DNA of 64,000 bases from Chitinophagales bacterium (GTDB lineage: Bacteria; Bacteroidota; Bacteroidia; Chitinophagales; Chitinophagaceae). The notes under the pieces are model-generated. The model ran no database searches. It saw only the letters and a program-made list of their open reading frames with translations, and was not told where the DNA came from. The DNA is taken from contig JAFLBI010000001.1 of NCBI GenBank assembly GCA_017303835.1, forward strand, positions 1,798,001 to 1,862,000, in the 5' to 3' direction. A program made the translations under genes and the position numbers. Shown here in pieces: positions 57,031-58,897 of this stretch (positions are counted from its first letter, which is position 1; each line of letters starts with the position of its first letter).

Positions 57031-58074
57031 CTATTTCAAATTGCTGGCAATCTCTGCCCAAACTGCATCCATGTATTTCTTCGCTGCTGCCACAACGGCT
57101 GCCTTATACTTAGAAGAATTCACTTCAACTGCATGCACTTTACTCATAAAGCGATTGTCTACATCATAGACGCGGAAGAAACCTGCGTCTGTACCCCAAT
57201 CTACTTTTGCTGTTTCTTCTGATTTGAATTTCTGCTTTGGAATGACATCTCCAATCTCAATTGGCTTTTTCAGCATCCAGTTACCCACATTGATATTGGC
57301 CATGCTCTGCTTGGCATTCAAAGCAATTAATGTTGCACCACTACTCTCAAAGCCAACAGTGCCCGATGTATTTAACCAATCATTGCCAATCTGTAACCCT
57401 GTTTCAGCCACCACTTTGGCACCACCACCCAAACGGCCCAATAATTTACTACCGCCCGATTCTGCCTCGTGAGCAAAAGGCACAGCAATATTCACCGCCA
57501 ATACGATAGCCCCCCCGAGCTGTTTGGACAGCGGCTGCGCCTTGCTCAAAAAGCCACCTTTTTCCTTGCCATCATCCCTTGTAGCTTTTACCAAATATTC
57601 ATATCCGGCAGGTGATACCGTTACATATCCATCGAACTGCGATTGGTTCAATGCACCACCGGCTTTACGCTGCCAGCCCTGCATTTCATCTGTTGCAGCT
57701 GCAGCATCTACAGACACCAATTCATACCCCGCAGCTTTAACCTTTTCTGTCAAATCTTTGTAGGCCTCATTCACGATATCTACCAAATCCTGCTCTTGCA
57801 AACCTTTCAATCCTATTGACAAATTAGCTTCCACATCACTCTTATAGCTTCTGGTATATTCACTACCACCACGGAATCCGCCCACTTTACGCTCCTTATC
57901 CAGATACAGTGTTTGAAAATTGAAACGGAACTGACTGATATAAATCTTCTTAGGCGCATCGTCTAGCTTTTTCAAGCCATAATTATTGACCGTTTTTAAG
58001 TCAACTTCTCCTATTGATTGTGCATTTGCAGCAAAGAATGAGAGCGAAATGAATAGTGCAAATATTCTACGCAT
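57031..58074 (-). CDS. exported protein of unknown function
   Basis: This 347-residue protein has a signal peptide (MRRIFALFISLSFFAANAQ). The middle part has a hydrophobic stretch (GGAIVLAVNIAVPFA) and Gly-rich KLLGRLGGGAKVVAETGLQIG. The end is helical and Lys/Ala-rich (SSKYKAAVVAAAKKYMDAVWAEIASNLK). I recognise no domain. The ATG at 58074 is chosen over 58149, since the latter frame would run through the palindrome. It lies directly downstream of the NarL-type regulator gene and its palindromic site. Confidence 0.68.
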   Translation of the reverse strand: MRRIFALFISLSFFAANAQSIGEVDLKTVNNYGLKKLDDAPKKIYISQFRFNFQTLYLDKERKVGGFRGGSEYTRSYKSDVEANLSIGLKGLQEQDLVDIVNEAYKDLTEKVKAAGYELVSVDAAAATDEMQGWQRKAGGALNQSQFDGYVTVSPAGYEYLVKATRDDGKEKGGFLSKAQPLSKQLGGAIVLAVNIAVPFAHEAESGGSKLLGRLGGGAKVVAETGLQIGNDWLNTSGTVGFESSGATLIALNAKQSMANINVGNWMLKKPIEIGDVIPKQKFKSEETAKVDWGTDAGFFRVYDVDNRFMSKVHAVEVNSSKYKAAVVAAAKKYMDAVWAEIASNLK

Positions 58075-58120
58075 AATTTTGGTTTTAAACGTGAAACTAT
58101 TATGCGAGTGGAACCTGAAC

Positions 58121-58140
58121 AATACAGCAAATGCTGTATT
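58121..58140. promoter_or_regulatory. 20-bp palindrome AATACAGCAAATGCTGTATT, copy 1
   Basis: Perfect 9-bp arms AATACAGCA and TGCTGTATT around AA. It lies 46 bp upstream of the 57031-58074 start and touches the stop codon of the regulator gene. The identical 20-mer occurs again at 58841-58860. A probable operator. Confidence 0.7.
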
Positions 58141-58805
58141 TACACCCATTTGTACTTATGGGCCAATAAGATTGCCTGTGCTTTGGAATTGATATGCAAC
58201 TTCTCGTAGATTCTACTAATATGTGTGCGTACGGTTTGCGGACTTATAAATAATTGTGTGGCGATGGCTTTATAGTCCTTACCCTCGACTAACAGCTTTA
58301 AGAGCTCCTGCTCTCGATCAGTAAGCGTATCCATCACAGAAGATTCTTTAGCAACTGCAGTGGGTTTTTGGCTGTCTTTCAGCCACTGTAAAGTTTTCCG
58401 GGCTATAGCCGGACTCATTGGCGCGCCATTAAGACTGTAGGCGTTCACAATAGCATCATGCAGCATACTGGCAGCATCATCTTTCAGTAAATAGCCACAA
58501 GCACCTGCTTTGATGGCTTCGAAAATTTTCTCATCATCATCAAATACAGTCAACACCAAAAACTTGGTAGAAGAAAAGCGAATACTCGCTACAGCAATGG
58601 TTTCAATGCCATTCATCACGGGCATATCAATATCCATTAATACCAAATCCGGATATTGCTCCTCAGCCAACCCCTGCATCTGTGCCAGAAAATCTTCGCC
58701 ATGCACAGCTTCCAGCACAATCTGTATATCAGACTCCTGCTCCAGGCTTTGCCGGATTGTCTTTCTATTGACCAATCTGTCATCTACTATTGCAACACGA
58801 ATCAT
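58140..58805 (-). CDS. response regulator, NarL/LuxR family
   Basis: This 221-residue regulator has a receiver domain with Asp8/Asp9 (AIVDDRLVN), phosphoacceptor Asp58 (VLMDIDMPVMNG), Thr in KFLVLTVFDD and Lys in GYLLKDDA. The C-terminal HTH has LTDREQELLKLLVEGKDYKAIATQLFISPQTVRTHISRIYEKLHINSKAQA. It is divergent from a propeller histidine kinase. The same 20-bp palindrome lies just downstream of its stop and in its own upstream region, so it is likely to bind both. Confidence 0.93.
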   Translation of the reverse strand: MIRVAIVDDRLVNRKTIRQSLEQESDIQIVLEAVHGEDFLAQMQGLAEEQYPDLVLMDIDMPVMNGIETIAVASIRFSSTKFLVLTVFDDDEKIFEAIKAGACGYLLKDDAASMLHDAIVNAYSLNGAPMSPAIARKTLQWLKDSQKPTAVAKESSVMDTLTDREQELLKLLVEGKDYKAIATQLFISPQTVRTHISRIYEKLHINSKAQAILLAHKYKWV

Positions 58806-58840
58806 CTGATATAAAATTCACGAAAGATGTATGGTACCGC

Positions 58841-58860
58841 AATACAGCAAATGCTGTATT
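58841..58860. promoter_or_regulatory. 20-bp palindrome AATACAGCAAATGCTGTATT, copy 2
   Basis: Identical to copy 1, with shared flanks C before and TTA-type bases after (CAATACAGC...GTATTTA). It is centred in the 92-bp divergent gap between the NarL-type regulator and the histidine kinase, 37 bp before the kinase ATG. Confidence 0.7.
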
Positions 58861-58885
58861 TATACGGTCATGATGATAAATGTAT

Positions 58886-58893
58886 TAATTTAA
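58886..58893 (+). promoter_or_regulatory. -7 box TAATTTAA of the propeller histidine kinase
   Basis: TAATTTAA is a loose match to TANNTTTG, followed by AGCC and the ATG at 58898. The palindrome copy 2 lies 25 bp upstream, where an activator would bind. Confidence 0.35.
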
Positions 58894-58897
58894 AGCC

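Follow-up and report, generated by a model that had tools for sequence, protein, structure and literature searches.

The 20-mer AATACAGCAAATGCTGTATT, which is present twice in the window (i.e., the whole stretch of 64,000 nt that was analysed), is very probably a DNA switch by which a response regulator turns on its own gene and the neighbouring gene of an exported protein. Its two copies, operator 1 at 58121-58140 and operator 2 at 58841-58860 (neither assigned to a strand), lie on either side of the regulator gene, exactly where the original prediction had placed them. With good though not full confidence, we take both copies to be operators of the regulator P0003, whose phosphorylated dimer would activate its own gene as well as the P0001/P0002 operon. 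The sites, their conservation, their phasing and their covariation, on which this reading builds, are taken from the sequence.

P0003 (58140-58805, minus strand) combines a REC domain with a GerE/LuxR helix-turn-helix (Pfam Response_reg 8.7e-20, GerE 3.4e-19) and contains the motifs LMDID, LTVF and LLKDD. With the phospho-acceptor Asp of its REC domain and its C-terminal GerE domain it is a NarL/LuxR (GerE) response regulator. Against the NCBIfam model of NarL orthologues it scores 124.3 bits, i.e., below the cut-off of 250, and the REC domain in place of an autoinducer-binding domain sets it outside the LuxR quorum-sensing regulators. Among solved structures, VraR and NarL come closest to it (closest full-length structure 5hev, E 1.9e-31). 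Its proposed partner is the divergently encoded sensor histidine kinase P0004 (58898-61819, plus strand; Reg_prop, Y_Y_Y, HisKA_3, HATPase_c). P0004 qualifies as a HisKA_3/Reg_prop kinase, with Y_Y_Y at 26.3 bits just under the cut-off of 26.6, and shows an RDLHDHLG motif with the phospho-acceptor His near residue 792.

The proposed targets other than the regulator itself are P0001 (57031-58074, minus strand, 347 aa) and P0002 (56172-56993, minus strand, 273 aa). P0002 follows 37 nt after P0001 and the two presumably form one operon. Both have signal-like N-termini. P0001 is without a family name, having no match in Pfam, NCBIfam or PDB, and no known family was found for P0002. A fold of P0001 predicted from the single sequence reached a mean pLDDT of 36, too low for use. 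P0001-family genes are also found immediately downstream of the gene of another LuxR-type regulator (L068 in G376, L069 in G203), i.e., the pairing of this family with such a regulator recurs without the present operator.

Each copy of the repeat reads AATACAGCA-AA-TGCTGTATT, that is, two fully complementary 9-bp arms around an AA/TT centre that is not self-complementary. Since the two strands disagree at 2/20 positions, the element is a 9-2-9 inverted repeat, and its earlier description as a perfect 20-bp palindrome is inexact. Copy 1 starts where the regulator's stop codon (58142-58140) ends, sharing its last base; 46 nt separate the end of this copy from the ATG at 58074 in front of which it stands. 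Copy 2 is located in the divergent region between regulator and kinase, 35 nt upstream of the regulator ATG (58805) and 37 nt upstream of the kinase ATG (58898). At up to 3 mismatches the window holds exactly these two copies, compared to a mean of 0.02 in shuffles, such that a chance origin is indeed very unlikely. A search of the whole genome (Chitinophagaceae, 3,262,235 bp) at up to 3 mismatches returned the same two copies and no others, rather than the hundreds that had been named as the mark of a repeat element.

Position and symmetry of the sites are conserved in relatives, a close one being a Chitinophagaceae metagenome assembly (JAIETM010000007.1). In a genome of the same genus, both operators are identical at 20/20 positions, as are the 35 bp from operator 2 to the regulator ATG, with the regulator coding sequence at 92%. 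In G432 (regulator ~65% identical), AATACTGCA-AA-TGCAGTATT is found 34 nt upstream of the regulator and AATACAGCA-TA-TGCTGTATT directly past the regulator stop, ahead of a P0001 homologue with 64% identity. That is, the layout is that of the window; the arms are altered yet fully complementary and the symmetry is retained. In G387 (regulator 70%), one site is again 34 nt upstream of the regulator, while the other stands 61 nt ahead of a different exported protein gene (Sortilin/BNR-like with Por_Secre_tail). For both genomes, the two sites that a genome-wide search returned as top matches lie on either side of the regulator; for G177 and G380, the top match is located ~2-3 kb away from the regulator.

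A paralogous locus of the own genome (regulator 61%, kinase 32%, P0001-like protein ~25% identical) has sites at both positions, and further sites are present in G334, G153, G177, G380 and G372. In the latter five, the site reaches into the kinase gene or directly adjoins its end, such that the regulator seems to own a promoter inside the two-gene unit. Equivalents of operator 1 were identified in G432, G334, the paralogous locus and G042. The exported-protein gene behind the second site belongs to the family of 57031-58074 in five loci and is unrelated elsewhere.

We surveyed the position of the site in 49 regulator loci, counting as a site any match to at least 14/17 consensus letters. A site 32-41 nt upstream of the regulator start codon is present in 10/11 loci with at least 53% regulator identity and in 0/8 loci under 45%. 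For G026 (regulator 55%), this survey found no recognisable site upstream of the regulator. More distant members (46-52%) often retain, in this place and phase, a sequence resembling TACTACAAATTGATTATT. In addition, TACTACAAATTGATTATTG-like DNA is seen at the 3' end of kinase genes (L039, L042, L043, L045, L046, L047, L092, L096, L098, L099), usually ~33 nt ahead of more distant regulators and overlapping the kinase stop codon; it may represent another type of operator with unchanged phase.

The sites are also fixed with respect to the promoter. Bacteroidota promoters have an upstream TTG element at -33. The box of the primary sigma factor, TAnnTTTG, was located at -12 to -5 by flavobacterial transcript mapping (PMC9723704). 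We scored such -7 boxes as matches out of 6 for each offset after the operator. Among the promoters, a list assembled after the sites had been seen, a box with at least 4/6 matches follows exactly 21 nt after the operator in all 19 cases (14/14 regulator and 5/5 P0001-family promoters), i.e., all of them look like Bacteroidota primary-sigma promoters at one and the same offset. The mean match at offset 21 is 4.79 for regulator and 4.60 for P0001-family promoters (4.7/6 overall), compared to 3.29 and 2.80, respectively, for the next best offset. The p-value of the respective shuffle test is 3e-4, which is the limit of the run.

Within the window, the regulator promoter has GAATTTTA (58812-58819, minus strand) as its predicted -7 box, 21 nt after operator 2, which puts the predicted transcript start near 58807, ~2 nt upstream of the ATG. 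For the exported-protein promoter, the predicted box is TAGTTTCA (58092-58099, minus strand), 21 nt after operator 1, with a predicted start near 58087. Both boxes are weak (4/6 matches). G334 carries the exact -7 consensus TAGCTTTG at offset 21 and G324 carries TACTTTTG. A box at the same offset is also found for the exported genes of G387, G380 and G372 and for the P0001 homologue of G142, while that of the exported gene in G177 is one base off. In relatives, most regulator -7 boxes are 3-9 nt upstream of the ATG. Given this spacing and the predicted start in the window, the regulator mRNA may be near-leaderless.

The operator sequence changes with the recognition-helix residues of the adjacent regulator. 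Where the conserved VR of this helix is followed by T, A or V, the right half-site is TGC or TGA in 12/12 cases; where K follows, a TTG, TTA or other half-site is observed in 13/14 cases (both counts uncorrected for shared ancestry). The helix of P0003 reads VRTHIS. Going by our own alignment, we take the varying positions to be those of the base-contacting V189 and K192 of the NarL-DNA structure.

Taken as a mechanism, P0004 would sense a signal and phosphorylate P0003, a dimer of which would then bind each 9-2-9 inverted repeat; this binding, its dependence on phosphorylation, and activation rather than repression are what we infer from the above. The last TT of the operator together with the next G would provide the TTG of the -33 element, with the -7 box starting 21 nt on. 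The bound dimer would thus be centred near -43.5 (as predicted from the position of the -7 box), beside RNA polymerase, which is the usual place for an activator of class-II type. The expected outcome is positive feedback on the regulator gene and activation of the P0001 and P0002 operon.

The kinase gene fits this scheme less well. On the kinase-facing side, no -7 box is found at the conserved distance in the three divergent loci (window, G432, G387; 1-2/6 matches), for which reason control of the kinase by operator 2 is improbable. On the same side, the window (58861-58897) and G432 (L131) share ATAAATGTATTAATTTAA, at a distance of 15 and 10 nt, respectively, from the operator. It is probably a promoter element of the kinase itself. 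The small regulon of the original prediction, which comprised kinase, regulator and two exported proteins, is therefore retained for the regulator and the exported proteins, where site, position and phasing are conserved and the operator type tracks the recognition helix, but not for the kinase.

The design has counterparts among known systems. The half-site of NarL follows TACYYMT, and the TACAGCA of the present operator violates both the YY and the final T. Dimeric NarL-type regulators bind a pair of inverted 7-base elements with a 2-bp gap (7-2-7), and NarL sites function at -44.5 and, in yeaR-yoaG, just upstream of -35 (PMC7419079). Compared to the E. coli NarL sites of ogt and yeaR-yoaG, the operators share the 7-2-7 geometry, the TAC start and GTA end and the place beside the upstream promoter element. 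The promoter itself is of the Bacteroidota -33/-7 kind instead of -35/-10, and kinase and targets are unrelated to nitrate. The lux box is likewise a 20-bp inverted repeat, centred at -42.5 (PMC3376562). It resembles the present operators in its distance of ~42-43 bp to the (here predicted) start and in its (here proposed) binding by a dimer with a GerE/LuxR-type helix-turn-helix; in contrast to LuxR activators, P0003 has a phosphorylation receiver and no homoserine-lactone domain, and the operator sequence differs. With VraR/LiaR-type systems, the REC plus GerE architecture and the HisKA_3 kinase class are shared, while the kinase input (here a Reg_prop propeller with Y_Y_Y), the operator sequence and the targets are not.

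The main competitor of activation is repression by the same protein, i.e., P0003 would cover the -33 element and keep both its own gene and the operon of the exported proteins silent until signalling alters its phosphorylation. Negative autoregulation is common among regulators generally, and the operator does take in the predicted -33 TTG. Repressors, however, tolerate shifts of their sites, whereas a distance to the -7 box that is fixed in 19/19 promoters suits activators that contact polymerase. Furthermore, the -7 boxes are imperfect, like those of activator-dependent promoters, and single-site NarL-type promoters of the same layout are activated (PMC7419079). We thus consider repression unlikely, yet it takes the largest share of what activation leaves. 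Distinctly less probable is that P0003 is the wrong protein and that another regulator of the same family binds the operators, e.g., the 61% identical paralogue. The genome does contain this paralogous system with related sites, but across genera the sites follow the adjacent regulator gene and the operator type shifts with the recognition helix of that regulator.

The explanations that dispense with a DNA-binding protein fare worse. As RNA, the transcribed strands fold into hairpins of 7-8 bp, more favourably than do most of their shuffled versions (z -2.0 to -3.1), and the arms co-vary in relatives, as would be expected of an attenuator, a processing signal or a terminator between regulator and downstream gene. 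On the other hand, operator 2 comes before the point where the regulator transcript is predicted to start, and more distant relatives retain position and phase with unpaired arms, e.g., CCTACTACAATTTGATTATT. A terminator in particular was rejected, since neither repeat has a T-run or is reported by the terminator scan. A role as RNA hairpins is accordingly highly improbable, and we give still less credence to a mobile or dispersed repeat or to chance or a recent duplication without function. The two copies share 25/26 bases, as a duplication would have it; this last group of readings is refuted by the copy number of two genome-wide together with a position that is conserved in other genera with changed arms. 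Activation by P0003 from both operators stays the preferred reading.

A larger regulon of P0003 in its own genome was considered and rejected. Only 8 sites are within 2 mismatches of AATACNGCANNTGCNGTATT. Beyond the operator pair, two of the remaining six are terminator-like, two fall inside long ORFs, C1:313272 is 16 nt ahead of an ORF, and the last is C1:2043999. The latter site, AATACCACAACTGCGGTATT (L135:9000-9019, i.e., G000:C1:2043999-2044018), stands between divergent genes, 47 nt ahead of the gene of a MORN/TPR exported protein; with a -7 match of only 3/6, it is a possible further target of P0003 or of the paralogue. A reversed-pattern control was biased by CpG and thus left out as null. 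Hairpins of the form AATCCCGCA-NN-TGCGGGATT (L123, L125; G380:C86:24125) recur in several genomes and resemble intrinsic terminators. These inflate palindrome counts; several weak genome matches of this shape were set aside as terminator-like.

Searching by title and abstract in a library with few subscription journals, we found nothing relevant on a Reg_prop/LuxR system of Bacteroidota or its operator, and no described DNA target of a Reg_prop/HisKA_3-partnered NarL-type regulator in this phylum. The element is a real one of an ordinary kind, probably an operator of autoregulation by a NarL-type response regulator, and belongs to a system that we did not find described. Since site, promoter phase and helix-to-operator relation could be derived without experiment, the targets of an uncharacterised two-component system are reduced to a simple binding or reporter assay, and exported proteins without a family name gain functional context as its outputs. 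Regulators of the present kind are abundant in the family (dozens of candidates per genome), and the fixed promoter geometry may be general in Chitinophagaceae. We see about an even chance that one design is shared throughout the family. NarL-type regulators with a HisKA_3 partner would then have their own class-II promoter at a fixed phase (20-bp operator, G, N20, -7 box, near-leaderless ATG), in many cases inside the kinase gene upstream, at its 3' end. The operator would be readable from two helix residues, and the cargo of the second operator would be swapped between genera. If so, regulons would be predictable from sequence via these two recognition-helix residues.

A composite pattern was also searched across the genomes of the family. 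Among the matches listed, those with 0 mismatches are found only at the present regulator locus (G000, G001, G387). G321 and G281 (e.g., L159, L160) show several TACGGGA-AT-TCCCGTATTG-N20-ATTTT sites per genome with differing N20, which suggests that a different regulator controls larger regulons there, with operator and -7 box in the same geometry. G401 (L165) holds nine copies of TACCGAATTTGAGGTATTGTTTC that continue in near-identical downstream sequence, which would fit a promoter present in several copies as well as a dispersed element.
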